Of a stretch of 64,000 nucleotides of DNA, positions 7,412 through 63,567 are shown piece after piece. This DNA is from Mucilaginibacter terrenus (GTDB taxonomy: Bacteria; Bacteroidota; Bacteroidia; Sphingobacteriales; Sphingobacteriaceae), in the NCBI RefSeq assembly GCF_003432065.1, contig NZ_QWDE01000006.1, forward strand, positions 62,001 through 126,000, given 5' to 3'. Position 1 is the stretch's first letter. Each line of letters opens with the position of its first letter. A model generated the notes under the pieces. It saw only the letters and a program-made list of their open reading frames with translations. It made no database searches and had not been told where the DNA came from. Made by a program: the position numbers and the translations under genes.

Positions 7412-8002
7412 CTATTTAGGGTGTTGAGCTATGCGTTTACGGATACGGCTAAGCGAAACCGGTGTAATACCCAGCAACGTAGCCAGGTATTTATCGGGGA
7501 CTCTGTTGTATAGCGTAGGCTGCTCTTCAATTAGCTTAAGGTATCTTTCTTCAGCGGTGAGCAGCACAAAACTTTCCACGCGTTCCATAGCTTCGCCAAG
7601 CATGTGCAGCAGCACCGAATGCTTAGTGGACGATAACGATAAACTCTCCCCTATTATCTTCTCGGCCTTATAATAATCCATTTCCAGCAACTCGGTGTCT
7701 TCCATCGCCTGGTAGATGAACCGGTTTGGGCGCTGGTAAATAACCCCGTCTACCGATGCGATGAACTGGTTCTCCCATCTTAGCATCAGCGTCAGGTCAT
7801 CGCCGTTTGGTTTTAAATGATATACACGAATGAGGCCGCTGTTGATAAAGGCAAGCTTCTGCGAGTCGGACCCGGCCTCAATATATACCTCCCCCGCAGC
7901 AAGCTTACGGGTGCGGGTTATTCGAAGGAGGTTGGCGATGTCAGCAGGGCCAAGTTGCCCAAAGACGTTAGCAGGAAAATTTATGTTTTCAAGATCAGGC
8001 AT
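7412..8002 (-). CDS. Crp/Fnr-family transcriptional regulator
   Basis: A 196-residue regulator with an N-terminal cyclic-nucleotide-binding-like beta barrel (about 20-130; LAAGEVYIEAGSDSQKLAFI) and a C-terminal helix-turn-helix (about 160-192; YLATLLGITPVSLSRIRKRI). The usual phosphate-binding-cassette residues of cAMP-binding Crp are not evident, as is common for the short Bacteroidota members that respond to other or unknown signals. It is divergent from the thioredoxin-like gene at 8072, with 69 bases between the starts, so it could regulate that gene; this is inference. Confidence 0.88.
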   Translation of the reverse strand: MPDLENINFPANVFGQLGPADIANLLRITRTRKLAAGEVYIEAGSDSQKLAFINSGLIRVYHLKPNGDDLTLMLRWENQFIASVDGVIYQRPNRFIYQAMEDTELLEMDYYKAEKIIGESLSLSSTKHSVLLHMLGEAMERVESFVLLTAEERYLKLIEEQPTLYNRVPDKYLATLLGITPVSLSRIRKRIAQHPK

Positions 8003-8071
8003 AGCAAATTACAAAAGATTGTCTCACGTCACAATATTCAAACCTAATTTCTATCTTTCAAAAACAAAGCC

Positions 8072-9184
8072 ATGAAGATTATTTTATACCTAATATTTGC
8101 TTTTCCGGTCATTGTTCGCGCACAGCAGACCTATCGGGTAAGCGGCCAAGTTGATGAACTGCAGGACGGAGATAAGATATATTTCTCTTACCACCTGGAC
8201 GGAGAATTACACAAGGATTCCACGGTAGCTAAAAACCATAGATTCACTTTCTTTGGCAAAATAAACAAGCAAGCAAAAGGCTCACTGTCTGCCCGTGAAA
8301 ATCCTTTTTCAGACATTGACATCTTACATAACAGCCTTACGCTTTATGTCGAACCCGGGCAAATAAATGTTATAAGTAAAGACTCGCTTAAATATGCTCT
8401 TATTACAGGGACGACCAATAACAACGATTATACGGAGTTGACAGCCATTTTAAAGCCTTACTACAAAGAGTTACGCAATGTTAACGACAGCTTTGATAAG
8501 CTATCACCCGAACAACAGAAAAACGTAGACAATATAGCTCAGCAACGAAAACAGTATTATGCAGTACTGGCGCAAATGGCTCCGCTAAAAATGGCGTTTG
8601 TTGCCCGGCACCCTAATTCGTATATTAGCTTTGCAACCTTACGAGACATGCTGAACCAATGGGATGCTAACAGTATAGACAGTGCATTTAACACCTTGGC
8701 GCCGGGGTTAAAAAACAGCTCCGAAGCAAAAAGCTTTGCTCTAAAGCTGGCATCAGCAAAACGGTCTGCTTTAGGAACAACTGCACCCAACTTTTTACTT
8801 CCCGACGCGAAAGGGCAGCTAACCAGTTTGCAGGATTACCGGGGTAAATATGTGTTAATTGATTTTTGGGCATCATGGTGCCTGCCATGCAGACAGGAAA
8901 ACCCGAATGTAAAGGCGGCATTCGAACGTTTTAAAAACAAAAACTTCACTGTATTAAGTTTGTCTATAGATGATTCCGGCGCGCGTAAGTCCTGGCTTAA
9001 GGCAATAAGCGAAGACGGCTTACCCTGGCCCCAACTTTTAGATGCCACGAAGAAAGTACATGATAGCTATGGCGTTACTTACATCCCCGCTAATTTCCTC
9101 ATTGATCCGAATGGAAAAATAATAGCAAAGAATTTAAAAGACACCGCACTTACTGATAAGTTAAGCGAGTTGCTGAATAAGTAG
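8072..9184 (+). CDS. TlpA-type thiol-disulfide protein with DUF4369-like head
   Basis: A 370-residue exported redox protein. The first 17 residues are a signal peptide (FPVIVRAQ). Residues about 20-115 resemble the DUF4369 beta domain found on Bacteroidota TlpA-like proteins; a helical linker follows (about 120-225). The C-terminal thioredoxin fold (about 235-370) carries the active site WCLPC with Cys270 and Cys273, and the cis-proline region as YIPANFLID. The role is reduction of disulfides or transfer of electrons in the periplasm. A near-consensus TATCTTTC lies about 12 bases before the start. It is divergent from a Crp-like regulator. Confidence 0.92.
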   Translation: MKIILYLIFAFPVIVRAQQTYRVSGQVDELQDGDKIYFSYHLDGELHKDSTVAKNHRFTFFGKINKQAKGSLSARENPFSDIDILHNSLTLYVEPGQINVISKDSLKYALITGTTNNNDYTELTAILKPYYKELRNVNDSFDKLSPEQQKNVDNIAQQRKQYYAVLAQMAPLKMAFVARHPNSYISFATLRDMLNQWDANSIDSAFNTLAPGLKNSSEAKSFALKLASAKRSALGTTAPNFLLPDAKGQLTSLQDYRGKYVLIDFWASWCLPCRQENPNVKAAFERFKNKNFTVLSLSIDDSGARKSWLKAISEDGLPWPQLLDATKKVHDSYGVTYIPANFLIDPNGKIIAKNLKDTALTDKLSELLNK

Positions 9185-9321: not shown

Positions 9322-10086
9322 ATGGAACAAAAAACTAAGATAGCCCTAGTAACCGGCGGCAGCCGCGGGTTGGGCAAAGATATGGCCTTACGTTTGGCCG
9401 AAAAAGGACTTGATGTGGTATTAACCTACAACAGCCAGCAGCAAGATGCTTTAGCCGTGGTAGCACAAATAGAATCAACCGGCCGCAAAGCAGCAGCGCT
9501 TCAGCTTAACGTAAGCGATACAAAAAGCTTTGTCACCTTTACAGAACAACTTCAGCAGGTGTTGCAAAATACTTTCAATACCAACCGCATCGACTTTTTA
9601 ATAAACAATGCCGGTACCGCGTTATATGTACCTATTGCGGAAATGACCGAAGAGGCTTTTGACGAGGTGATGAACGTGCATTACAAAGGTGTTTACTTTC
9701 TTACACAAAAGTTATTGCCTGTACTTAACGATGGCGGTGGCATCATAAATATTTCCAGCGGCCTTACCAGGGTAAGCGCACCGGGATCGTCAGCCTATGC
9801 CAGCATGAAAGGCGCTATAGAAGTGTTTACCCGTTACCTCGCTAAAGAGCTTGGAGCACGTGGTATAAGAGCTAACGCGGTAGCCCCGGGCGCTGTAATG
9901 ACCGACTTTGGCGGCGGCCACCTGCGCGGCAACGAGCAGCTTAAACAGTACATCAGCAGCGTTACGGCTTTAGGACGGCTGGGCGTTGCAGAAGACATTG
10001 GCGGCGTTGTAGCTTTCTTGTGTACCGAAGATGCCCGCTGGGTAAATGCTCAGCGCATTGAAGCATCCGGTGGCATGCAGGTGTAA
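9322..10086 (+). CDS. Short-chain dehydrogenase/reductase (SDR)
   Basis: A 254-residue classical SDR oxidoreductase. The N-terminal nucleotide-binding motif is TGGSRGLG, the structural NNAG motif is present, the catalytic serine lies in NISSG, and the catalytic pair YxxxK is in SAYASMKG. The C-terminus GGMQV is typical of FabG-like members. It probably uses NADP(H) and acts on a small alcohol or ketone; the substrate is not predictable. It is followed by its own terminator and then by an AraC-family regulator on the same strand that may control it. Confidence 0.92.
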   Translation: MEQKTKIALVTGGSRGLGKDMALRLAEKGLDVVLTYNSQQQDALAVVAQIESTGRKAAALQLNVSDTKSFVTFTEQLQQVLQNTFNTNRIDFLINNAGTALYVPIAEMTEEAFDEVMNVHYKGVYFLTQKLLPVLNDGGGIINISSGLTRVSAPGSSAYASMKGAIEVFTRYLAKELGARGIRANAVAPGAVMTDFGGGHLRGNEQLKQYISSVTALGRLGVAEDIGGVVAFLCTEDARWVNAQRIEASGGMQV

Positions 10087-10099
10087 GCTTAGTTATTAG

Positions 10100-10138
10100 C
10101 AGAAAAGCAGGTACATTAACAGACCTGCTTTTCTGTTT
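10100..10138 (+). terminator. Terminator after the SDR gene
   Basis: A perfect 13-bp stem (CAGAAAAGCAGGT with ACCTGCTTTTCTG) with a 10-base loop, followed by TTT. It separates the SDR gene from the AraC-family gene. Confidence 0.85.
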
Positions 10139-10173
10139 AAGGGGGATATCATTTCATCAGCAGTAATTTATAT

Positions 10174-10181
10174 TAACTTTG
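10174..10181 (+). promoter_or_regulatory. Bacteroidota -7 element for the AraC-family gene
   Basis: TAACTTTG matches TAnnTTTG and lies 17 bases upstream of the ATG at 10199. Confidence 0.5.
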
Positions 10182-10198
10182 ATTTATACAAAACACCA

Positions 10199-11107
10199 AT
10201 GCCACCCCATACCAGCATAGACCAGTTTTACAAGGAAAGCTCGGCACAACTGCCTGAAGGCATTAGTAAGGACATAGGGCATTTTAATGTGTTTGAGACC
10301 GAGAAGCTTTTTGATAAAGCAACTGGCAACCGGGTTATGCCTTACACGCGACGAGCATATTACAAGATAAGCTGGATACGTGGTAAGAGTACTGCAGAGT
10401 ACGCCGATAAGGTAATTGACATTGAAGAGAATGCATTGCTTTTTGCCACACCCAAGATCCCCTACCATTGGGTGCCAGCAAATGGCAACCAAACGGGCAT
10501 GTTCTGCATCTTCACTCCCGACTTCCTGGCCGAGCGTAAATCCGGCGCTTTGCTTGACGATCTTCCAATTTTTCAACCGGGGCAGTTGCCGGTGTTCCAG
10601 CTATCTGACGAGGAGGTTAAAGAAATTGAGTACATCTTCCGTAAGATGCATAAAGAACTGCAGGCAGATTATAAGTTCAAGTACGATCTACTGCGCAACC
10701 TGGTCCTCGAGCTGATCCACTACGGCCAAAAGCTACAGCCCATGTCTGCCGTGAGCACATCGCAGGATGCGTCGCAACGAATATCATCCTTGTTTGTAGA
10801 ACTATTGGAAAGGCAATTCCCGCTGGAGTCGGCACATCAACGGCTTAGCTTGCGGTCGCCAAAGGACTATGCCGACAGGCTGGCCATACATGTTAATCAC
10901 CTGAACAAGGTTTTAAAAGAAGCTATGGGTAGTACCACCACCCAGATCATTAGCAACCGTGTAATGCAGGAGGCAAAAATACTGCTGAAGCAAACCAACT
11001 GGAGCGTAGCGGAAATAGCTTACACCCTGGGCTTTGATGATGTGGCGCATTTCTCCAACTACTTCAAAAAGCAGGGAGGCACCGCACCGCTGGCATTCCG
11101 GTCGTAA
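10199..11107 (+). CDS. AraC-family transcriptional regulator
   Basis: A 302-residue regulator with an N-terminal cupin-like sensory domain (about 20-140) and a C-terminal pair of helix-turn-helix motifs (about 200-302). The second motif shows the AraC signature WSVAEIAYTLGFDDVAHFSNYFKKQGG. The arrangement is typical of regulators activated by a small ligand or of those that control a neighbouring redox enzyme gene. The upstream SDR gene is the nearest candidate target. It converges on dxs with only 26 bases between. Confidence 0.92.
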   Translation: MPPHTSIDQFYKESSAQLPEGISKDIGHFNVFETEKLFDKATGNRVMPYTRRAYYKISWIRGKSTAEYADKVIDIEENALLFATPKIPYHWVPANGNQTGMFCIFTPDFLAERKSGALLDDLPIFQPGQLPVFQLSDEEVKEIEYIFRKMHKELQADYKFKYDLLRNLVLELIHYGQKLQPMSAVSTSQDASQRISSLFVELLERQFPLESAHQRLSLRSPKDYADRLAIHVNHLNKVLKEAMGSTTTQIISNRVMQEAKILLKQTNWSVAEIAYTLGFDDVAHFSNYFKKQGGTAPLAFRS

Positions 11108-11133
11108 TGGCTGTCGTAAGCAAAGAGAATAAA

Positions 11134-13071
11134 TTAAGATGCTATTGTATGTTTGTTGCGTTTTATATCCAGCGCGCGCACTTTGGCGGCAATAGATGCC
11201 GCATCGTAACCGCAGTCGGCCCATAGTTCCGGCTGTTCACCATGCTCTATCACCTGGTCTGGCATACCTAACCTAACTACAGTTGTAGCATGGTATTTAT
11301 TATCTGCCATAAACTCCAGCACCGCGCTGCCCATGCCACCTTCCAGACAGCCATCCTCAACGGTAATTACGTGACCGTATTTGCTGAAAACCTCGTGTAA
11401 TAAGGCTTCATCAAGTGGCTTAACAAAGCGCAGGTCGTAATGGGCAGGGTAGTAGCCTTCCTCATTTAGCATAGCGGTAGCTTTAACCACTTCATTACCA
11501 ATAGTTCCGATAGAAAGGATAGCGACATCCTCCCCGTCGCATATCTTACGGCCCTTACCAACAGGTATAGCTTTGAAAGGACGCTGCCAGTCTACCATAA
11601 CACCGTTGCCACGTGGGTAACGGATGCTAAACGGGCCCATATTGTCCAGTTGAGCTGTATACATCAGGTTGCGCAGTTCTTCCTCGTTCATTGGTGCAGA
11701 TACCGTCATATTAGGGATGCTGCGCATATAAGCAAGATCGTATGCGCCATGGTGCGTTGGGCCGTCGGCGCCGGCAATACCGGCGCGGTCAAGGCAAAAC
11801 ACCACGTTAAGCTTTTGTATAGCAACGTCATGTATCACCTGGTCGTAAGCGCGCTGCATAAAGCTGCTGTAAATGTTACAAAAAGGCGTAAGCCCCTGTG
11901 TAGCTAGACCGGCAGAAAAAGTAACCGCGTGCTGTTCGGCTATACCCACGTCAAATGCGCGGTTTGGCATAGCCTTCATCATCAGGTTAAGTGAACATCC
12001 CGACGGCATGGCCGGGGTGATGCCCATTATTTTAGAGTTAGCTTCGGCCAGTTCTATTATTGTATGCCCAAAAACGTCCTGGTATTTAGGAGGCTGTGGT
12101 TTGTCGTACTTTGTTTTTTTAATCTCCCCGGTGATCTTATCGAACAAGCCGGGTGCGTGCCACTTGGTTTGGTCCTTTTCGGCCAGTGCGTATCCCTTAC
12201 CTTTAACCGTAATGCAATGCAGCAGCTTAGGGCCAGGTATGTTGCGCAGGTCCTGCAGCAATTTTACCAGGTGTTTAACATCATGCCCGTCAACCGGTCC
12301 AAAGTACCTGAATTTAAGCGCTTCAAAAAAGTTGCTCCGTTTAAGTAAGGTACCCTTTATGCTCTTTTCAAGCTTCTTAGCTATCTTAAACGCATCAGGG
12401 CCAATAGACGATATTTTGGTAAGCACGTTGGCTATATCATCCCTAAAACGGTTATAAGGCTTAGAAGTGGTAATGTCTGTAAGGTACTCTTTAAGCGCGC
12501 CCACGTTAGGGTCTATCGACATGTTATTGTCGTTAAGTATCACCAGCAGGTTGCTGTTCTCTATACCCGCATGGTTTAAAGCCTCAAAAGCCATACCCGC
12601 TGTCATGGCGCCATCGCCAATTACAGCCACGTGCTGGCGGTCGGTCTCTCCTTTATATTGAGAGGCTACAGCCATGCCCAAAGCAGCCGATATCGAAGTT
12701 GATGAGTGACCAACCCCAAAAGTATCATACACACTTTCTGAGCGCTTTGGAAAGCCGCTTATGCCCCCATGTATACGGTTGGTATGAAAAGTATCTCTGC
12801 GTCCGGTAAGTATTTTGTGCCCATAAGCCTGGTGGCCAACGTCCCATACCAACTGATCGTATGGCGTATTCAATACGTATTGCAATGCAACCGTAAGTTC
12901 TACCGTACCCAAACTTGCGGCAAAGTGCCCCCCGTTTACCGACACTACATCAATAATGTACTGGCGAAGCTCGTTACAAACCTGTTCTAGTTCATCTTCT
13001 GTAAGCTGTTTCAGATCAGAAGGAAAAGCGATCTTACTTAACAATTCACCGGCGGGTACCTGCATGGACAA
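11134..13071 (-). CDS. dxs: 1-deoxy-D-xylulose-5-phosphate synthase
   Basis: A 645-residue thiamine-diphosphate enzyme catalysing the first step of the MEP isoprenoid pathway, joining pyruvate and glyceraldehyde 3-phosphate. The N-terminal part shows [19 protein letters not shown] and [11 protein letters not shown]. The ThDP-binding motif begins [15 protein letters not shown] and ends near NDNNMS. The middle domain has [15 protein letters not shown] with the catalytic glutamate, and [18 protein letters not shown]. The length is normal for Dxs (about 620-645). It stands alone, divergent from scpA. Confidence 0.97.
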
Positions 13072-13174
13072 ATCAAATTGAGAGATATTAATACAAAGTA
13101 AGGTATTATATTGATAAGTTTATAATGTGTTAATTGTTTTGTGACGCAAACGGGGAACTTACCGCCTTTAAACG

Positions 13175-13182
13175 TATTTTTG
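13175..13182 (+). promoter_or_regulatory. Bacteroidota -7 element at the scpA start
   Basis: TATTTTTG matches TAnnTTTG but ends only four bases before the ATG at 13187, predicting a leaderless or nearly leaderless mRNA. Confidence 0.45.
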
Positions 13183-13186
13183 AAGC

Positions 13187-13933
13187 ATGACGGATGACAG
13201 TTTTGCCATAAAGTTGCCGCAGTTTGAAGGCCCCTTCGACCTGCTGCTGTTCTTTATAGAACGCGACGAACTGGACGTGCATGACATCCCCATCGCTAAG
13301 ATAACCGATGATTTCCTGAACTACATCCACCAGATGACGGTGCTGAACATGGAGCTGGCCAGCGAGTTTATTTTTGTTGCGGCCACGCTCATGCGGATAA
13401 AAGCGAAAATGCTGCTGCCGCGGCACAGCGAAGCAGGTGAAGAAAACGAATTGGACACAAAGGAAGGCCTCATTCGCAAGCTGATAGAATACAAAAAGTT
13501 TAAGGAAGTGTGTGAGCAGCTGCGCCCGTTTGAAGATGAACGCTTTAAGCAGGAACGCAGGGGTAACATCAAAACTGATCTGGAACAGGTTGAGAAAGTG
13601 GCCGTACCTGGCGAAGAGTTGTCTGATATTAACCTGTATAAACTCATGACGGTTTACAACAGGGTGATGCAGCAATTTATGACCCGCACCGAACCGGTAA
13701 CCCATACCGTTGTACAATACCCCTACACCATTGAGCAGCAAAAGCAGGCAATAAACAACCTGCTGCAAATAAATAAACGGCTGGACTTTAAGAGCATTGC
13801 CGATAAAAGCGAGAACAAAGTGCATTTTGTGTACAATTTTTTGGCGGTGCTGGAGATGCTGCAGCAAGAACTGATAGATATACAGGTAGGGCTCGGCTTC
13901 AACAATTTTTGGATAGCGCCGAGGGGCGAGTAA
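13187..13933 (+). CDS. scpA: Segregation and condensation protein A
   Basis: A 248-residue kleisin subunit that bridges the Smc heads with ScpB in the bacterial condensin complex, needed for chromosome compaction and segregation. The N-terminal signature is LPQFEGPFDLLLFFIERDELDVHDIPIAKITDDFLNYI in order (residues about 7-45), followed by the helical AATLMRIKAKMLLP segment; the C-terminal winged helix lies at about 180-245. scpB is not adjacent. Length and motifs are normal for the family. Confidence 0.93.
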   Translation: MTDDSFAIKLPQFEGPFDLLLFFIERDELDVHDIPIAKITDDFLNYIHQMTVLNMELASEFIFVAATLMRIKAKMLLPRHSEAGEENELDTKEGLIRKLIEYKKFKEVCEQLRPFEDERFKQERRGNIKTDLEQVEKVAVPGEELSDINLYKLMTVYNRVMQQFMTRTEPVTHTVVQYPYTIEQQKQAINNLLQINKRLDFKSIADKSENKVHFVYNFLAVLEMLQQELIDIQVGLGFNNFWIAPRGE

Positions 13934-14305
13934 GGCGGTGTGCAATTGCAGTTTGCACTAGCGCTTTGAAGCCGGCAATTTGCAGTATTAAGTTACCATT
14001 TACCACTCACCCTGACTAATCACTACTCACCAAAGAGGTGTATCATCAAGTCAAAAAATCAAAAAAACTGTAACATGGCCGCCAAAACTGTAACATGTTT
14101 AAACATCTAAATTTTATAATATACTGACTATTAGCACACTAGTAAAAAACGGGCACTTTTAAGTGTATCAGGTGTAACACCCTGTCGTGATACAGTTGTT
14201 ACAGGATAGGTTGCACTGCAATTTAAAATGCTTAATTGCTTATCTTCAATAACCTGTGTCATTTCTCACATCTAATCTCTAATTTTACGCGCATTACACA
14301 CAGCA
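13934..14305. promoter_or_regulatory. Intergenic region upstream of glyA with repeated CTGTAACA motif
   Basis: A 372-base gap. The sequence AAAACTGTAACATG occurs twice as a direct repeat (14064-14077 and 14084-14097, a 20-base period), and the reverse complement TGTTACAG occurs near 14206, so three sites of the same octamer lie upstream of glyA. A TAATTTTA element at 14280-14287 is a weak -7 candidate. The first 100 bases hold low-complexity ACTCACC-type sequence. No gene is seen. Confidence 0.4.
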
Positions 14306-15592
14306 ATGAAAAGAGACAAAATAATATTCAAATTACTAGACGAGGAACAGCAACGCCAGGAAGAAGGTATTGAACTGATAGCATCCGAGAACTTCGTGAG
14401 CAAACAAGTGATGGAAGCCGCCGGCTCGGTAGCAACCAACAAATACGCCGAAGGCCTTCCGGGCAAACGCTACTATGGTGGCTGTGAAATAGTCGACGAG
14501 ATAGAGACCATTGCTATTGAGCGCGCAAAACAGCTTTTCAACGCCGAGTGGGCAAACGTGCAGCCACATAGTGGTGCACAGGCTAACGCCGCAGTAATGC
14601 TGGCCTGCCTGCAGCCAGGCGACAAGATATTAGGGTTCGACCTTTCGCATGGTGGCCACCTTACCCATGGCTCACCGGTAAACTTCTCCGGTAAGTTATA
14701 CGAACCCCACTTTTACGGTGTGAAGAGAGAAACCGGTTATATTGATTATGAGCAGCTGAAAGAGGTAGCACTGCGCGAGAAACCGAAGCTGATCGTATGT
14801 GGCGCTTCCGCCTATTCACGTGATTGGGACTACGCTTTTATTCGCCAGGTAGCTGATGAAGTAGGTGCGTTGGTACTGGCAGATATATCTCATCCGTCGG
14901 GCCTTATTGCACGTGGCTTGTTAACAGACCCGCTTCCGCATTGCCATATAGTAACTACCACTACGCATAAGACCTTGCGCGGCCCACGTGGCGGCCTTAT
15001 CTTATTAGGCAAAGACTTTGAGAACCCATGGGGACTTAAAACACCCAAGGGTGAAGTAAGAATGATGTCGAACCTCCTAGACATGGCTGTTTTCCCCGGC
15101 ACACAAGGCGGCCCTCTGGAGCACATCATAGCTGCTAAAGCAATAGCCTTCGGCGAAGCATTAAGCGACAGCTACATGAAGTATATTGTTCAGGTAAAGC
15201 TGAACGCCGCAGCAATGGCCAAAGCTTTTGTTGACAGGGGTTACGAGATCATCTCAGGAGGAACAGATAACCACCTTATGCTTATCGACCTAAGGAACAA
15301 GAACATCAGCGGCAAAGCTGCTGAGAAGGCTTTGGGCGAGGCAGACATCACCATCAATAAAAACATGGTGCCTTTTGATGACAAATCTCCATTTGTTACA
15401 TCGGGTATACGTGTAGGCACAGCGGCTATAACTACACGAGGCCTTAAAGAGAAGCACATGGAAGCCATTGTGCAATTGATAGATGATGTATTAAAAAGCC
15501 CTGAAGACGAAACTGTTTTGAAGAAAGTTCGTAAAAAGGTGCACAAGCTGATGGCAGATCATCCATTATATAGCGACAAGCATTTAAACTAA
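14306..15592 (+). CDS. glyA: Serine hydroxymethyltransferase
   Basis: A 428-residue PLP enzyme interconverting serine and glycine with transfer of a one-carbon unit to tetrahydrofolate. Family motifs run in order: [11 protein letters not shown] near the N-terminus, [38 protein letters not shown], and the PLP lysine Lys222 within [14 protein letters not shown]. The C-terminus has [14 protein letters not shown]. All catalytic segments are intact and the length is normal. The hybrid kinase gene begins five bases after the stop, so the two may be co-transcribed. Confidence 0.98.
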
Positions 15593-15597
15593 ATTTA

Positions 15598-18500
15598 ATG
15601 GCTGTAGGGCAGGGTATGAAAGAAAACGAAGAAAGCGGACGCTTAACCGCTCTGCATTCGTACGACATTCTCGATTCGCTGCCCGAAAAAGAGTATGATG
15701 CTATTGCGCGCCTGGCCTCCTATATATGCCAGGCGCCGCTAGCCTTTATTACCTTTATTGATAATGACCGACAGTGGTTTAAATCCAAAGTGGGTTACGA
15801 TATTGACTTTATTCCTAAAGTCGATTCTTTTTGCCGCCACACAATCCTAAAGAAAGAACTGGTAGAAGTGCCTGATGCTTCTCAAAACGAATTGTTTTGC
15901 GAAACAGAAATGGTTACCGGAAACTTCCATATTCGATTTTACGCCAGCGCGCCGTTGATTGATCCGGATGGCTACTGTATTGGAACCCTTTGCGTTTTCG
16001 ACCAGCAGCCGAAACACCTAAGCGACGAGCAAAAGGATGCCTTAAGCACCCTGGCCGACGAGGTGATGAGTCACCTCATCCTCCGCAAGCAAAAGAAGGA
16101 ACTGGAGCAAAGCTTGCAGGCACATAAAGATTTTTACACGCTCTTTAACAGTTCATCTGAAATACACTTCATTGCAGGTGCCGATTCCAACATCGAATTA
16201 ATAAATAACTGCGTAAGCGACATCCTGGGCTACAGTCCGGAACAAGCCGTTGGCAAATCGTTATGGTCATTTGTAGCAGGCCAAAACCGCGAACAATTTG
16301 CTCCCCTTATAGAAAAGGCTGTAGCCTCGCATGAGCCGTTTGAACTTGATACGCAAGCCGTTACCTCAACCGGCGAAATGAAGTGGATCAGCTGGACAGC
16401 TGTGAACAAGAATGGCAAATGGTATGCAAGCGGCCGCGACGTTACTTACCAAAAAAACCTGCTTACCCAAACAGAACAGCTCTCACTGGTTGCCAGTAAA
16501 ATTAAGAACGGCGTTCTGATAAGCGACGCAGAAGATAAGGTACTATGGACCAACGCGGCTTTTGAAGATATCACCGGTTACAATATTAAAGATGTTGAGG
16601 GACGGTTTTTAGGAGATGTTTTAAAAGGCAAGCCTAAAGACCAGAATGCTGAGAACGAACTTATAGATGCACTTCAAAATAAGCGTTCATACGAAGTGGA
16701 GCTATCGATAACCACTAAAGATGGCAGGGCTCTTTGGATCTCGGTAACCAATTCTATCATTTATGGCCCTACTGGTAAGATAGAAAAATTCATCCGCATA
16801 ATTATTGATATTACCAGCCGCAAACGCGCCGAACAGGATGTGGAGATACTCTCATTTGCTGCCAGGAAGTCGCCAAGCGGCATTATGATCCGTGATGCGG
16901 AAGGTAAGATCATTTGGATGAATGACTCAATGTCGCACATCATTGGCTATACGCTGGATGAGCTAAGGGGCCAAACCATGGGCACAAAACTCCTTGGAGA
17001 AGACACCGACATGCGGGTGTTTGAAAAAGCCTTGGACGCCGTAAAGCAGAATAAGTCTTACGAGGTCGAGTTAAAAATCTACAAAAAGGACGGTACCCCT
17101 ACCTGGGTATTTATAACTAACAGTCCGCTGTTTAACGAGGTAGGGCAGGTAGAGCGGCAAATTGGTGTTATGGTTGATGTAACCGCACGTAAACAAACCG
17201 AGGAACAGTTAAACATGCTTTCGCTAGTTGCAAGTAAAGCAACCAGCGGGGTGGTTATAAACGATAGCAGCGGCAAAGTAGAATGGGTAAATGATGCGTT
17301 TGAAAGTATAACAGGCTATTCGCTTGCTGATGTTGAAGGTGGCCATTTAGGTGATGTTTTGAAAGGGGAACTGACCGACGTTTCAATTATTTCTAAAGCA
17401 AGGGAACTGTCTGAGAAAAAGCAATCCTTTGAAGTCGATTTACTGGTTTACAAAAAAGATGGCACCCCAATATGGATATCTGTAATTAACTCAGTTATCA
17501 CCAATGATGCAGGGAAAGTAGATAAGTACATTGAAGTTATACTTGATATTACTGCAAAGAAAAAAGCTGAACTTGAACTTATCACTGCAAAAGAAGAGGC
17601 TATACAATTAAGCAGAGCAAAAGATATGTTTATTGGCGTAATGAGCCATGAGATACGTACGCCGCTTAATGCTGTAATCGGCATGTCGCATTTGTTGATG
17701 AACGACAATCCGTCTGAGTCTCAAAAAGAGAACCTGAACATTCTTAAGTTTTCGGCCGAGAACCTGATGACGCTGATTAATGATGTACTGGATTTTACAA
17801 AAATTGAGACTGGCAATATCGAGCTTGAAAAAGCTAGGGTAAACGTTAGAGAAATGATTGAGGGCGTTACGCTGTCAATGCAGTATAAAGCACAGGAAAA
17901 CGGCATATATCTGCGTAGTAATATAGAAGAGAGTATACCGGCTTTTGTTATTGGTGATAGGGCCAGATTGGTTCAAATACTGCTGAACCTGGTAAGCAAT
18001 TCGGTTAAATTCACATCAGCGGGAGGTGTGGATATCGACTTGAAGGTTATAGAACAGGATACGAAGTCTGTAAGGATACGTTTTGCAGTTTCTGATACTG
18101 GAATTGGTATTGCAAAAGACAAATTAAATACCATCTTTGAATCTTTTAAGCAGGCTGAGGCTGATACCACCAGAAATTACGGTGGTACAGGCTTGGGATT
18201 GGCTATTAGTAAACGATTAATAGAGTTGCACGATTCCAGGATTAACGTTGACAGCGTACCTGGACGGGGCTCTACTTTCTGGTTTACAATAACTTTTAAA
18301 AAGCTGGAAGACCAAACCGTAAATAATAACAACAAAGTGGAAACAGGGCTCAATATCCATGTGCTGGTGGTTGATGATAACCAAATAAACAGGCTACTTA
18401 TAAATAAGGTGCTTAAAAAATGGGGCGCCACTGCAGACTTTGCCGAAAATGGTCAGGAAGCTATCGATAAGCTTCAGGAACATAAGAATTTTGATGTGGT

Positions 18501-58043: not shown

Positions 58044-59135
58044 ATGCCTGCATCTTATTACGAACCCCTCGAGGGCTCCGAACGCCCTGCTATTATTAAC
58101 CAGATACGCGACGAAATCCGCCGCGGCACCAAACGCCTCCGCAAACATGGCCTCGACCCTACCGTGTATGCCGACCCTTCCCGCTCGCAGCTGCTGCTCA
58201 TCAAAACCGGCGACGAGTGGATGCGGCAGCAACGCAACAAACCTGCGCCCCGACGGCTGTTTGGCGATTTCTGGTTCGAGCATGAGCTGTGCATTATGTT
58301 TGCCGATACCAACCTGGGCAAAAGCGTGCTGGCCGTGCAAATAGGCAGCAGCCTGGCCCTCCACACCGCCGTTGGCCCCTTTGCCAACGAGCTTACCCAG
58401 CCCGCCCGCGTGCTGTATGTAGATTTTGAACTTACGGCCAAACAGTTTGAGCAGCGGTACCAGCACCCCGTGGCGGGCAGCCGGCACTTTGGCCACACCT
58501 TTTACCGGGCCGAACTTAACCCCCGGGCAGATAACCCCGCTTTTTATGACGACCGCAACGCCTACATCCTCTCGGCTCTGGAGGGTGCCATTACCCGCAC
58601 CAATGCCGGCGTGCTCATTATTGATAACCTTACCTGCATCCGCAGCAGTACCGAACGCGCCGCCGATGCCCTCCCGCTGATGCAGCAGCTAAAGGCACTA
58701 AAAACCACCTACAAGCTCAGCATACTGGCGCTGGCCCATACCCCCAAGCGCAACACCGCCAAACCCATTACCGTGAACGACCTGCAGGGCAGCAAAATGC
58801 TCATCAACTTTGCCGACAGCGCCTTTGCCATAGGCCAAAGCCAGCGCGACCCATCTAAACGCTACCTTAAACAGATTAAACAGCGCAGCGCCCAGCAGCA
58901 ATACGGCGAGCAGAACGTATGCACCGGCCACCTGGTAAAAGAGCTGAATAATTTGAAGTACATGTTTGATGGCCACAGTACCGAAGACGAGCACCTGCAG
59001 AAACGCACCCGGGCACTACAGCAGCAGCAAGCCCAGGAGCTGCACCGGCAGGGACACGGTTACCGCCACATCAGCCGTGTACTTGGCATTAGCACCGGCA
59101 CAGTAAGCAAACTGCTTGCAGGGCATACCGGCTAA
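58044..59135 (+). CDS. AAA_25/RepA-like ATPase with C-terminal helix-turn-helix
   Basis: A 363-residue RecA-fold ATPase of the AAA_25 group. The Walker A is MFADTNLGKSVLAVQ, a variant in which the first glycine is replaced; Walker B is LIIDNLTCIRSS after a VLYVDFEL strand. The end of the core has LAHTPKRN and LQGSKMLINFADSAFAIGQS, as in plasmid RepA-like helicases and related proteins. The C-terminal 30 residues form a resolvase-type helix-turn-helix (YRHISRVLGISTGTVSKLL). It is visibly GC-richer than its neighbours, suggesting transfer. Role may be DNA replication or mobile-element related; no partner gene is adjacent. Confidence 0.78.
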   Translation: MPASYYEPLEGSERPAIINQIRDEIRRGTKRLRKHGLDPTVYADPSRSQLLLIKTGDEWMRQQRNKPAPRRLFGDFWFEHELCIMFADTNLGKSVLAVQIGSSLALHTAVGPFANELTQPARVLYVDFELTAKQFEQRYQHPVAGSRHFGHTFYRAELNPRADNPAFYDDRNAYILSALEGAITRTNAGVLIIDNLTCIRSSTERAADALPLMQQLKALKTTYKLSILALAHTPKRNTAKPITVNDLQGSKMLINFADSAFAIGQSQRDPSKRYLKQIKQRSAQQQYGEQNVCTGHLVKELNNLKYMFDGHSTEDEHLQKRTRALQQQQAQELHRQGHGYRHISRVLGISTGTVSKLLAGHTG

Positions 59136-60017: not shown

Positions 60018-60050
60018 TGAACCCGCCGCAAGCAACGACGCTTGCGGTAG
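60018..60050 (-). repeat. REP-like palindrome, left copy
   Basis: CCGCAAGC and GCTTGCGG form a perfect 8-bp stem with a six-base loop. Its reverse complement starts CTACCGCAAGCGTC, identical over 14 bases to the repeat at 63379-63407, and continues with similarity to TTCA. The two copies are in inverted orientation around the SIR2-STAND gene. Confidence 0.7.
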
Positions 60051-60131: not shown

Positions 60132-63100
60132 ATGTCAGAAAAGTTATTGCCGCAAATCCTTGTAGATCAGATTAGAAACAAGAATGTAGTTTTATTTCTA
60201 GGAAGTGGATTCGCATATAATTCAGTTCATCCTCAAGGTCGAAAAGCTCCGTTGGGTCAGGCACTTTCAGATGACATTGCACGCAAGTTTTTAGGCAATG
60301 ATTATGTTGGCAACCCGTTGACCTACAATTCGGACTTGGCTATCTCAGCCTCAAGTTTATTCGATGTACAAAGATTTATATACGACATCTTTGAACCATT
60401 TGCCCCAAATGAAAAACAAGTGGCTTTTTCGAATTTTTCTTGGAAGTCGATTTTTACAACTAATTATGATCTTCTACTTGAGAAAGCTTACGATAAAAAT
60501 CGTGAAGCAGCTCAGTCACTCTCAGTTGTTTATCGTAATACTCGAGAGCAAGATATATTTAAAAACCAGAACTCTGTACCTTATTACAAGCTACATGGCA
60601 CAATTACGTACATCAACGACGAACAACTCCCATTAATATTATCGACAGAGCAGTACATCACACATTTAAAAAACAGAGAACGGTTATTTTCAAAGCTGAG
60701 AGAACTTGCCCAGGACTATATTTTTCTATTTATTGGTTATAGCAATCAAGATTGGAACATAAGATCAATATTAAAGGAGATTGAAAGCTTGAAGGATGGA
60801 CGACCTCGGTCTTATATGGTTGGTCCAAAGTTTTCAGATGTTGAAATAGGTTATTGGAATGAGAGAAAAATTAGCCCAATACCGATTGGATATGAAGAGT
60901 TTATTGACAAGTTGTTATTGCAAATTCCGGAAATTGAACGTAAGCTGTCCACTTATATACCTAATTTTGACAAGCCTATTTACAGAAAATTCGCAATTGA
61001 TTTAAGCGGGTACAAGCCGTCCGAAAGCTTAGTAAAGCTAATTGATCAAGAAATTGAATTTGTACATAGTTCTATGCAGTCTGTTAATACGACTCCGGAG
61101 GCATTTTATAAAGGGTATTTCGAAAATTGGGATCCAATAATCAAAAATCTTGATATAAATAGAACCTTGAAAGATAGGGTGCTAGAAGACATGATATTTA
61201 ATAAACACTATCAGTCAGAAACTACACAGCACCTCTTTTGCATAAAAGGCTATGCCGGCTCAGGGAAATCGGTTCTATTAAAAAGAATAGCTTGGGAGTC
61301 ATCGGTAACATTTGAAAAGTTTTGTATCTACCTTAAACCAAACGCTAATATACGTTATGAGCCTTTCATTGAATTGTACAACTGCATCAAAGAAAGAATC
61401 TATCTTTTTGTGGATAATGCTATTGAATATGAAAACTCTATTTTATTGCTAATAGATAAATTAGAGAAAGAAAAAATACCGATCACCATAGTTTCAACTG
61501 CCAAGATTAACTTACTTAATGAGTCCGAGATTCAATCCTATATCGATCAAGAGTATACTTTAACCTACCTTTCAGAGAAAGAAATAGAAGAGTTAATTAA
61601 GAAACTCTTTATTCACAAATCTTTAGGATATCTAACAAACAAAAACATAGAAGAACAGAAAGCCTTGCTTTCAGAGCGTTCTGGAAGGGTCTTATTGGTG
61701 GCACTTCACGAGGCAACGTCAGGTAAACCTTTTGAAGAAATAATCTTTAATGAGTTCATTGGAATACCAAATCAGTCAGCTAAATCTTTGTACTTGACTG
61801 TTGCAATTCTGCATAGATTAGGAACATATGCTAGGGCAGGGCTCATCAGTAGAGTACATAATATTGGCTTTGAAGAATTTAAGTCTAAGTTTTTTAAACC
61901 ACTTGAATATATTGTTTTTGATGAACGAAATTACACGATTAACGATTATATATATAAAACAAGACATCCGTTAATTGCACAGATGGTATTCGAGACTGTT
62001 CTTGTTGATGAGCAATCTAGGTACGATGAATATATAAGAATTTTTAGCTATTTGGATATTGATTACAACAGTGATCGCGTAGCATTCCTAGCTATGACAA
62101 AGGCTAAACAACTTATTCCATTATTCAATGACCCTATACGACTCCGAAATTTATACGACGCAGCAGAACTTTGTAGCCCAGACGACGCAAAATTGCTGCA
62201 ACAACGTGCAATTATGGAGATGTCAATTCCCGGCGGTATTCCCGCCAAGGTAGAAGCTTTTCTGAAACGAGCATTAGAGCTAATGCCGAATGATCCTATG
62301 ATTTCACACTCTTTAGCTGAGTACACACTGAAACAGGCGGAAAAGTCAAGCAATAAGCTGGAGAGAAATACATTAGTAAACTCCGCAATAAATCTTTGCC
62401 ACAAAATACTCAAGAAATCCAACAGCCACCACAGTCATCATACTATTATAAAGGCGAAAATGCTCCTGCTAAAAGATGCGATCGAAAGTAATACTGCGCC
62501 AGCTGTCGAAAGCTTAATTAAGGAAATTGAAAAAACATTACAAATAGCAAAACAATCTTTTCCAGAGCAAGAGTTTATAATTGACATAGAAGCTAGATTC
62601 AAAGAATTAATAGATAACCAACCACGTGCTTTGGAGTTATTAAAGCAAGCTTATGAAATTAATAAAGCCAGCCCATATATATCTTTGAGATTTGCTAAAA
62701 CCCTTGAGAATAAAGGGGAACTTGAAGAAGCAATTAAAGTTCTTGACCAAACTATTGCATTAAACCCTAACGATAAAGATGTAAGCTTTAGATTAGCATT
62801 GCTTTTAAGCTTGAGGCCAAACCCAGATTATGGAGAAATAATTCATTATTTCAGAAGATCTTTTATTTCTGGGGACAACAGATATGAAGCTCAGTTTTGG
62901 TATGCAAGAGCTCTGTTTATCAATAACGATATTCAGAAGGCAGAAATTGAATTCGAAAGACTTTCAAGAACAAAAGTAAATATTGAATTTAAGAGAAATC
63001 CGCGAGGTGTGGTTGATTCCAAAGAAAGCGTTCGTCAATACAAAGGTTCTATAACTGTTTTGGAGGCAAATTATGCTTTTGTAAAAAGAGAAGCTTTTGG

Positions 63101-63230
63101 GGACGACATCTTTGTATATAGACATACTACAAAGATCGATTGGACGGATCTTAAAGTAGGAAGTCGTATTTCGTTCTCTATTATGTTTAATTATAGAGGA
63201 CCTGTTGCAGTCGATGTTTATATGAACTAA
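60132..63230 (+). CDS. SIR2 - STAND NTPase - TPR - cold-shock-like domain protein, putative anti-phage
   Basis: A 1032-residue protein. SIR2-like domain (about 10-270): GSG at 24-26, Asn111 in TTNYD, the catalytic His155 in YKLHG, and FIGYSNQDW. STAND-type NTPase (about 345-600): Walker A GYAGSGKS at 373-380 and Walker B YLFVDNA with Asp428, followed by a winged-helix-like segment. TPR-like helical repeats (about 700-930), for example ALELMPNDP and TIALNPNDKD. The last 63 residues (970-1032) resemble a cold-shock/OB domain (GSITVLEANYAFVKRE, DDIFVYRH, LKVGSRISFSI, RGPVAVDV). SIR2-STAND proteins are anti-phage NADases activated by phage products. The gene is clearly AT-rich and flanked by inverted repeats, indicating transfer. 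No second gene of a system is adjacent. Confidence 0.85.
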   Translation: MSEKLLPQILVDQIRNKNVVLFLGSGFAYNSVHPQGRKAPLGQALSDDIARKFLGNDYVGNPLTYNSDLAISASSLFDVQRFIYDIFEPFAPNEKQVAFSNFSWKSIFTTNYDLLLEKAYDKNREAAQSLSVVYRNTREQDIFKNQNSVPYYKLHGTITYINDEQLPLILSTEQYITHLKNRERLFSKLRELAQDYIFLFIGYSNQDWNIRSILKEIESLKDGRPRSYMVGPKFSDVEIGYWNERKISPIPIGYEEFIDKLLLQIPEIERKLSTYIPNFDKPIYRKFAIDLSGYKPSESLVKLIDQEIEFVHSSMQSVNTTPEAFYKGYFENWDPIIKNLDINRTLKDRVLEDMIFNKHYQSETTQHLFCIKGYAGSGKSVLLKRIAWESSVTFEKFCIYLKPNANIRYEPFIELYNCIKERIYLFVDNAIEYENSILLLIDKLEKEKIPITIVSTAKINLLNESEIQSYIDQEYTLTYLSEKEIEELIKKLFIHKSLGYLTNKNIEEQKALLSERSGRVLLVALHEATSGKPFEEIIFNEFIGIPNQSAKSLYLTVAILHRLGTYARAGLISRVHNIGFEEFKSKFFKPLEYIVFDERNYTINDYIYKTRHPLIAQMVFETVLVDEQSRYDEYIRIFSYLDIDYNSDRVAFLAMTKAKQLIPLFNDPIRLRNLYDAAELCSPDDAKLLQQRAIMEMSIPGGIPAKVEAFLKRALELMPNDPMISHSLAEYTLKQAEKSSNKLERNTLVNSAINLCHKILKKSNSHHSHHTIIKAKMLLLKDAIESNTAPAVESLIKEIEKTLQIAKQSFPEQEFIIDIEARFKELIDNQPRALELLKQAYEINKASPYISLRFAKTLENKGELEEAIKVLDQTIALNPNDKDVSFRLALLLSLRPNPDYGEIIHYFRRSFISGDNRYEAQFWYARALFINNDIQKAEIEFERLSRTKVNIEFKRNPRGVVDSKESVRQYKGSITVLEANYAFVKREAFGDDIFVYRHTTKIDWTDLKVGSRISFSIMFNYRGPVAVDVYMN

Positions 63231-63567
63231 TAGCTTAAATTCAACTTTAATGAAAGTTATCGGTTATGATTTGCTGACTACTAACCTTTACAACATTTCA
63301 GCATCTGGTTACTGTCAACTGCGTGGTTTGTGGTCTGTAATTAGGTAATTAACAAAAGAAACACTTTACAATCCTTCGCTACCGCAAGCGTCACCGCTTA
63401 TGGTTCACTGACAGGTAAACAATTCAACAACATCTCAGCACTACCAATCCCATCTAAACCCGATAGCAGCGGATACCGGCCTTGTGGCTAAGGCTTGTGC
63501 GCGTATGAGCGTATAGCGGGGCTGTCGTTCCGTACGAAGTGATGCAGTACCTTTTTAAAGAAAATGT
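63231..63567. other. Gap after the SIR2-STAND gene
   Basis: 337 bases without a gene. It holds the right-hand copy of the palindromic repeat at 63379-63407 and otherwise nothing I recognise. GC content rises toward 63480, marking the return to host-like or GC-rich sequence. Confidence 0.5.
63379..63407 (+). repeat. REP-like palindrome, right copy
   Basis: ACCGCAAGCG and CGCTTATGGT form an imperfect stem (two mismatches) with a four-base loop. CTACCGCAAGCGTC matches the reverse complement of the left copy at 60018-60050. Confidence 0.7.

Follow-up and report, generated by a model that had tools for sequence, protein, structure and literature searches.

A SIR2-STAND-TPR protein with a cold-shock tail in Mucilaginibacter terrenus, a probable mobile single-gene anti-phage protein

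Here, we describe a candidate antiviral gene in Mucilaginibacter terrenus (assembly GCF_003432065.1), at 60132-63230 on the forward strand of a 64,000-nucleotide stretch, hereafter the window (contig NZ_QWDE01000006.1, positions 62,001 to 126,000; the contig has 127,492 bases and the genome 4.6 Mb). Its product joins an N-terminal SIR2 domain to a STAND NTPase, a TPR arm, and a C-terminal cold-shock domain. We consider it probable that this is a horizontally mobile gene whose single product, a STAND-type protein, acts against phages, with a predicted NADase activity. This reading of the sequence is favored because the domains and their key residues are intact, the SIR2 fold is nearest to those of anti-phage NADases, relatives sit in mobile DNA and defense hotspots, the gene is low in G+C, and no recurrent partner gene accompanies it.

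Domain architecture and the C-terminal cold-shock domain

The open reading frame (ORF) starts with ATG and encodes 1032 residues plus a stop, without an internal stop. Three Pfam families match the window protein far above chance: SIR2_2 (PF13289) at residues 106-250 (E 5e-27; 95 bits against a cut-off of 24.5), nSTAND_NTPase5 at residues 324-465 (E 9e-20), and TPR_19 at residues 832-884 (E 5e-12). Conservation was read from a family alignment of 16 members, comprising the window protein, 9 of 12 genome loci, 1 of 3 IMG/VR loci, and 5 of 7 fetched plasmid regions; left out were L051 (inner stop), L055 and L057 (truncated where their contigs end), and L069 and L072 (broken). Each of the three Pfam families matches all 16 members at E <=0.01. 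The features of the gene are as follows.

60132..63230 (+): whole gene, SIR2 - nSTAND5 NTPase - TPR - cold-shock domain protein (ORF and Pfam)
60132..60941 (+): SIR2 NADase-like domain, residues 1-270 (Pfam SIR2_2; structural match to ThsA)
60462..60464 (+): codon of the catalytic Asn111 (TTNYD), invariant in 16/16
60594..60596 (+): codon of the catalytic His155 (KLHG), invariant in 16/16; Asn in 4/4 aligned members of a sister clade
61092..61691 (+): STAND P-loop NTPase (nSTAND_NTPase5), residues 321-520 (Pfam PF25199; 16/16 family members match)
61248..61271 (+): Walker A P-loop GYAGSGKS, residues 373-380 (G373, G376, G378, and K379 invariant in 16/16)
61692..62201 (+): residues 521-690, with the strongest conservation among the six regions compared (mean pairwise identity 0.467)
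62202..63026 (+): TPR/helical repeat arm, residues 691-965 (Pfam TPR_19, 16/16 family members; helical in the model)
63036..63224 (+): cold-shock/OB domain, residues 969-1031 (Pfam CSD; profile match to Csp and Unr in the PDB; model pLDDT 89, VIA-align Z up to 12.1)

The putative active sites are strictly conserved. G24, G26, N111, D113, H155, G373, G376, G378, and K379 are identical in all 16 members, and D428 is kept in 15, with Glu in the remaining one. By structural alignment with VIA-align, the predicted SIR2 domain is closest to ThsA (Z 20.4, 250 aligned residues, root mean square deviation [rmsd] 2.9), DSR2 (Z 20.4), and KomC (Z 20.2). Residues and fold are those of NAD+-hydrolyzing defense sirtuins, which makes an NADase output most likely. 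Since the Pfam scan of the window protein matched no other effector domain, such as AlbA_2/tRNase, SIR2 is the sole candidate effector. Mean pairwise identity is 0.41 over SIR2, 0.38 over the NTPase, 0.47 over residues 521-690, 0.32 over the repeats, 0.30 over the cold-shock domain, and 0.23 over the linker (residues 271-320); residues 521-690 probably correspond to the winged-helix/arm portion of the STAND module.

The gene also stands out by composition. Its G+C content is 35.2%, against a mean of 45.9% (standard deviation 3.8; z -2.8) for the 26 other ORFs of at least 300 codons in the window, and its third-position G+C is 31.6%, against 49.0% (standard deviation 7.5; z -2.3). The first-pass annotation of this DNA, made from the letters alone, had described a SIR2-STAND-TPR defense protein with an AT bias against its neighbors and a long helical repeat region. 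Both features are borne out, the three domains that it named all have Pfam matches, and GSG 24-26, Asn111, His155, GYAGSGKS 373-380, and Asp428 are all where it placed them; moreover, the catalytic Asn and His and the P-loop Lys are kept throughout the close family. It had further held that the layout extends beyond the common SIR2-STAND one. This is so by virtue of a cold-shock domain, which it had missed, and not of the TPR region, which is ordinary in Avs5.

As modeled, the C-terminal part of the window protein is a five-stranded cold-shock/OB barrel with an aromatic face resembling RNP1 and RNP2. The Pfam CSD match at residues 971-1030 (E 2e-4, 21.5 bits) falls below the curated cut-off of 27, which is exceeded by the Escherichia coli homologue (38.0 bits) and by that of the L063 locus (35.4 bits); 9 of the 16 family members match at E <=0.01. 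A profile of the last ~72 residues, built from 11 family members, matches Unr, CspE, CspA, and CspB among PDB sequences (E 2e-10 to 2e-6). Folded alone with this 11-member alignment, the domain yields five strands with a predicted local distance difference test score (pLDDT) of 89, cold-shock domains top its Foldseek list, and VIA-align superposes it on Unr (4qqb; Z 12.1, 69 aligned, rmsd 1.6) and CspA (Z 10.6, 66 aligned, rmsd 1.9). On the binding face (Tyr981, Phe983, and Phe994 in the window protein), all 16 members have Tyr, Phe, or His at position 981 and Phe or Tyr at position 994, and 14 have Phe or Tyr at position 983.

Through an aromatic RNP face, cold-shock domains bind RNA or single-stranded DNA. 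By analogy, that of the window protein most probably does likewise, with a role in sensing, gating, or localization. A shorter protein of 812 residues on an IMG/VR contig (L064, 1801-4236) carries SIR2_2 and nSTAND_NTPase5 and has no cold-shock match; it is possibly a version of the layout without the tail. The M. terrenus genome itself encodes two more SIR2_2 proteins (G000:C3:433537-433956 and C1:1280680-1281117), whose open frames of 440 and 365 codons are far shorter than the window gene.

Distribution and mobile settings of the family

The family is rare and widely scattered. Near-full-length matches of at least 40% identity occur in 4 of 395 genomes of the class and 5 of 399 of the family, two overlapping draws that each count the M. 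terrenus genome itself; the remaining matches cover part of the query, belong to the sister clade, or concern SIR2 or TPR alone. Among genome contigs, 12 loci were found, in Bacteroidota and in metagenome-assembled genomes labelled Nitrospirae, Chloroflexi, and "bacterium", and IMG/VR gave three loci. Matches were found in 38 plasmid records, 14 of them covered over at least 80% (nine from Klebsiella, two from Acinetobacter, and one each from Vibrio, Psychrobacter, and Methylobacterium). A homologue of the L063 gene is present in 1 of 5,426 complete E. coli genomes, among which no near match to the Klebsiella homologue was found. Phage records contained no match to the window protein, and the L063 homologue matched four of them over an 11% stretch only. 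In the family tree, Parapedobacter joins Natronoflexus (support 100/100), apart from the other Sphingobacteriaceae, a grouping that would be in line with transfer between lineages. Across loci, the G+C content of the gene is below that of its flanks in 15 of 16 (the exception is L056), by more than 4 points in 13.

Two relatives occupy sites of particular relevance. L063 is a P2-like prophage in which the SIR2 gene (9995-13099) is preceded by gpA (PF05840; 4721-6979) and an Abi_2 gene (7648-8628) and followed by the genes for the portal (PF04860; 13146-14150) and the terminase (14150-15919). L083 is a P4-like satellite of E. coli N18-04097, where the SIR2 gene (product WP_097725118.1) lies between psu (PF07455) and the integrase, with no other annotated gene between them. 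The gpA-gpQ interval of P2 and the psu-int interval of P4, which these two genes occupy, are anti-phage hotspots, and systems from there were tested by Rousset et al. 2022, by that paper's account (PMC9122126).

The other settings are similarly rich in mobility and conflict genes. The gene directly follows type I restriction genes in L059 and L068, and it is accompanied by a DNA methyltransferase and KilA-N in L054, an integrase and AbiEi in L062, and a PemK toxin in L056. Relaxases are found in L051 and L052, serine recombinases in L058, L070, and L071, and transposases with a recombinase on the L067 plasmid. L066 lies within an integrative element that also carries VapBC and an "Abi family protein", as annotated in the record; Pfam confirms the PIN toxin, and the Abi-annotated ORF has no Pfam family at E 1e-4. 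Altogether, at least one mobility, restriction, abortive-infection (Abi), or toxin gene, verified or annotated, is nearby in 14 of 18 loci (L051-L054, L056-L063, L066-L068, L070, L071, and L083), as tallied by hand and without a control set. Of the other four, L053 has only an HNH gene, and L057, L060, and L061 have none by eye, their neighbors being unscanned. Pfam was run on 30 hand-chosen ORFs of the 171 neighbors, 6 of which had no match.

An all-against-all comparison of these 171 neighbor ORFs (16 loci) revealed no recurrent partner gene, the only shared families being integrases/recombinases, transposases, relaxases, and type I restriction proteins. The single-gene reading is therefore kept. 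A housekeeping role was rejected: the upstream cytochrome b561 gene has a match in 92 of 120 genomes of the genus, the other context proteins did not recur in the three relatives compared below, and no conserved housekeeping setting, which would have spoken against the defense assignment of the first-pass annotation, was seen among the close-family loci examined.

In the window, the flanks of the cytochrome gene were compared with those of three relatives (~1.5 kb on each side). The five other context proteins had no counterpart there, the ORFs listed included no SIR2-like one, and the gene downstream gave only weak matches, in 4 of the 120 genus genomes besides M. terrenus itself; a clean empty site is therefore not demonstrable. 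Two genes upstream of the SIR2 gene, in a G+C-rich stretch (52%), an ORF at 58044-59135 (+) encodes an AAA_25 (RepA-like) ATPase with a C-terminal helix-turn-helix. It is not beside the cytochrome gene in the three relatives examined and is possibly a mobile-element remnant. A 21-base inverted repeat, 86% complementary and one of 15 such pairs, lies on both sides of the SIR2 gene (60030-60050 and 63379-63399). Its left arm is itself hairpin-like, and a search for the repeat-hairpin pattern found no match within the window; it may represent an extragenic repeat, part of a mobile element, or a chance occurrence.

Proposed mechanism and competing readings

The domain order suggests how such a protein might work. 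At rest, the repeat arm and the tail would keep the protein closed. Upon infection, its C-terminal part (the repeats and the cold-shock domain) may bind a phage product, perhaps together with nucleic acid. Binding would promote ATP-dependent oligomerization via the STAND module and stacking of the SIR2 domains, which would in turn switch on NAD+ hydrolysis and stop the infected cell.

Several observations weigh against this anti-phage reading. The closest relative, from Mucilaginibacter sp. UR6-1 (69% identity), is a copy with an inner stop. In 8 of the 14 well-covered plasmid records, all from Klebsiella, the match starts at residue 38 with two features beneath it, and the one inspected has split frames; an Acinetobacter baumannii plasmid copy is in three pieces, and plasmid copies look decayed in many cases. 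Within the window, none of the three scanned neighbors (56301, 58044, and 59281) is a recognized defense gene. The low conservation of the repeats and cold-shock domain is as expected for a sensing end, but it would equally fit weak constraint. Since the whole model, obtained with AlphaFold2 from 11 sequences, has a mean pLDDT of 79.5 and a predicted template modeling score (pTM) of 0.45, the domains are credible and their packing is not.

As to the interrupted copies, they comprise L002/L051 (Mucilaginibacter sp. UR6-1; inner stop) and L069 and L072 (on plasmids of Klebsiella pneumoniae and A. baumannii; broken up over two or three frames), and they may reflect repeated decay or sequencing error.

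A further point against the reading comes from a sister clade of the same layout. The alignment of L005, L006, L033, and L034 with the family spans 977 columns and reaches the family's end (profile-profile probability 100, E 7e-53). All four have KLNG in place of KLHG and keep the SIR2 Asn and the P-loop GKS; L065, from an IMG/VR contig, aligns over 986 columns and likewise has KLNG. Because Asn replaces the catalytic His in this clade, NAD hydrolysis could be shared as an output by all proteins of this layout only if Asn is tolerated. The first-pass claim of a defense gene with all key residues intact is thus sustained as far as the window protein and its close family are concerned, in residues as in contexts that fit defense, and does not extend to the sister clade. 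Above the Pfam cut-off, nSTAND_NTPase5 is found in two of these five proteins, and CSD is in none of them at E 0.1; on the basis of the profile alignment only, their C termini would correspond to those of the family. The L065 protein (9992-13312) has 1106 residues, and its adjoining genes look like those of a Mu-like phage by ORF inspection.

The alternative that survives best, which we regard as possible but doubtful, is that the window protein is a plain divergent Avs5, whose repeats would sense a phage protein while the cold-shock domain would be an accessory for stability or for ribosome or RNA tethering, with no sensing role. Indeed, EfAvs5 ranks first in a Foldseek search of the PDB with the whole model (E 9.1e-22), ahead of human SAMD9 (E 1.9e-18) and then, among others, the AVAST5 filament, DSR2, and ThsA. 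VIA-align superposes EfAvs5 on model residues 3-846 (Z 19.4, 686 aligned, rmsd 13.4), the 16-member profile matches its sequence in two stretches, best over SIR2 (E 3.4e-19), and Avs5 proteins likewise carry TPR or Sel1 repeats by their published description (PMC12931631). Moreover, the L063 homologue scores 27.9 bits with nSTAND3, the NTPase family of Avs5, just above the cut-off of 27.2. However, the top NTPase model in that same homologue is nSTAND_NTPase5 (103.7 bits), nSTAND3 reaches E <=0.01 in only 2 of the 16 members, L063 being one, and EfAvs5 is not among the best 60 of 96 PDB sequences matched by a profile of residues 321-700. The retention of the cold-shock domain from Bacteroidota to E. 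coli also argues against a plain Avs5.

It is unlikely, in our view, that the protein is instead a nucleic-acid-gated sensor of the SAMD9 kind, in which SIR2 would be regulatory or structural and not the effector. The four modules are ordered as in the published SAMD9 core (PMC5445408), and the whole model (residues 2-1032) aligns with SAMD9 residues 389-1589 (Z 14.4, 813 aligned, rmsd 21.5, 12% identity); among the best 50 structural matches listed, only SAMD9 entries extend to the C-terminal domain. The Asn of the sister clade would also suit a noncatalytic SIR2. On the other hand, the catalytic Asn and His are invariant in the family, SIR2 has no rival for the effector role in the Pfam scan, and the structural match is suggestive and not proof, since helical-repeat models can reach Z values up to 13 through their common arrangement. 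In a viral structure library, the 50 matches listed held no SIR2-STAND protein and were mostly TPR/Sel1-repeat and ATPase proteins.

Finally, the mobility, restriction, Abi, or toxin genes near 14 of the 18 loci with readable context could point to a selfish or addiction element of mobile DNA, serving anti-plasmid functions or satellite-helper control and not mainly anti-phage, but we find this quite improbable given that the P2 and P4 hotspots hold tested anti-phage systems (PMC9122126) and that no antitoxin-like partner recurs. We thus retain the anti-phage STAND protein with a predicted NADase output as the preferred reading.

Relation to known systems

SIR2-STAND-repeat defense proteins are already known, including in these hotspots, according to earlier reports (PMC12931631, PMC9122126). 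Rousset et al. 2022 mention hotspot STAND proteins with SIR2, which may include the present family (PMC9122126). In the literature searched, mostly open access and with few preprints, we found no account of a cold-shock tail on a SIR2-STAND protein, of the sister clade and its altered site, or of a mobile bacterial SIR2-STAND protein combining the full SAMD9 core order with a canonical P-loop. PADLOC 2.0.0 (2023) and NCBIfam contained no model matching over the full length, the PADLOC models matching the SIR2 and cold-shock domains only.

With ThsA, DSR2, and KomC, the window protein shares the SIR2 fold and catalytic residues, and its sensing parts differ from theirs. To our knowledge, none of these families has a STAND NTPase joined to a cold-shock domain. 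The ThsA layout of Thoeris, SIR2 followed by SLOG, is not found here: ThsA models cover residues 9-230 only, and the NTPase and TPR regions come next.

The tail itself has distant counterparts. The NCBIfam model of the retron Se72 effector matches residues 981-1029 weakly (E 4e-4, 20.2 bits against a cut-off of 82), the CoCoNuT proteins CnuB and CnuC are described as having CSD-like folds (PMC11090510), and, for NTP-dependent conflict systems, Kaur et al. 2020 count OB domains of the S1-like and cold-shock types among those that bind RNA, in a text that does not contain "sir2" (PMC7159879). These systems differ from the window protein in their effector and NTPase parts, and the descriptions found of them include no SIR2.

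Avs5, as described, consists of SIR2 (PF13289), nSTAND3 (PF20720), and C-terminal TPR, Sel1, or PPR repeats, and a phage protein triggers its hydrolysis of NAD+ (PMC12931631). The window protein is similar in having a SIR2_2 effector, a STAND NTPase, and C-terminal TPR-like repeats in a single chain, and EfAvs5 (9jap) is its best whole-model match. It differs by nSTAND_NTPase5 in place of nSTAND3, which has no match in the window protein up to E 1, and by the cold-shock domain. Membership in Avs5 was thus rejected on the NTPase, although the PF13289 domain and the repeats are present, and the Avs5-type assignment made at first pass does not hold by the published domain description.

For the human antiviral factors SAMD9 and SAMD9L, the tRNase is much better understood than the SIR2, TPR, and OB parts, as far as the cited work on them goes. 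The SAMD9 core was defined by Mekhedov, Makarova, and Koonin 2017 as AlbA_2, a Sir2-like domain, a STAND-like P-loop domain in which Gly replaces Lys, TPR, and, at the C terminus, an OB domain most like cold-shock proteins; it was reported from animals and from bacteria, actinomycetes in particular, with AlbA_2 lost in some members (PMC5445408). A likeness between Avs5 and SAMD9 was already remarked on in the Avs5 paper (PMC12931631), and a review ties SAMD9 to prokaryotic antiviral STAND proteins (PMC13245274).

A bacterial single-gene protein with a SAMD9-like core, whose P-loop is canonical and whose SIR2 is apparently active, carried by a P4-like satellite of E. coli, would make the role of each module, and most of all that of the OB/cold-shock tail, testable with ordinary phages. 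Nucleic-acid binding would also join the possible modes by which bacterial NLR-like proteins sense infection. We tentatively propose, as a conjecture open to serious doubt, that the family and its His-to-Asn sister clade represent the mobile prokaryotic stock of the SIR2-STAND-TPR-OB core of animal SAMD9/SAMD9L: a receptor borne by phage satellites, whose tail would read RNA or single-stranded DNA and whose SIR2 would have passed from an active NADase, through a catalytically altered form, to the variant Sir2 of SAMD9.

The window protein resembles SAMD9/SAMD9L in its module order, from SIR2 through the STAND P-loop and TPR to a cold-shock-like OB domain, and in a modeled structure that aligns collinearly with it to the C-terminal end. 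It differs in keeping the P-loop Lys379 (16/16, with GKS in 4/4 of the sister clade), where SAMD9 has Gly, in its complete SIR2 catalytic residues, and in starting with SIR2, with no AlbA_2 match up to E 1 and no tRNase or SAM match. SAMD9 is not among the best 60 of the 206, 96, and 164 PDB sequences matched by profiles of the whole protein, residues 321-700, and residues 521-960, respectively. Membership in SAMD9 was rejected on the P-loop Lys and the missing AlbA_2, with the core order nonetheless present. Hence, the statement that the protein is a SAMD9 is not supported, and the statement that it is built like the SAMD9 core is.

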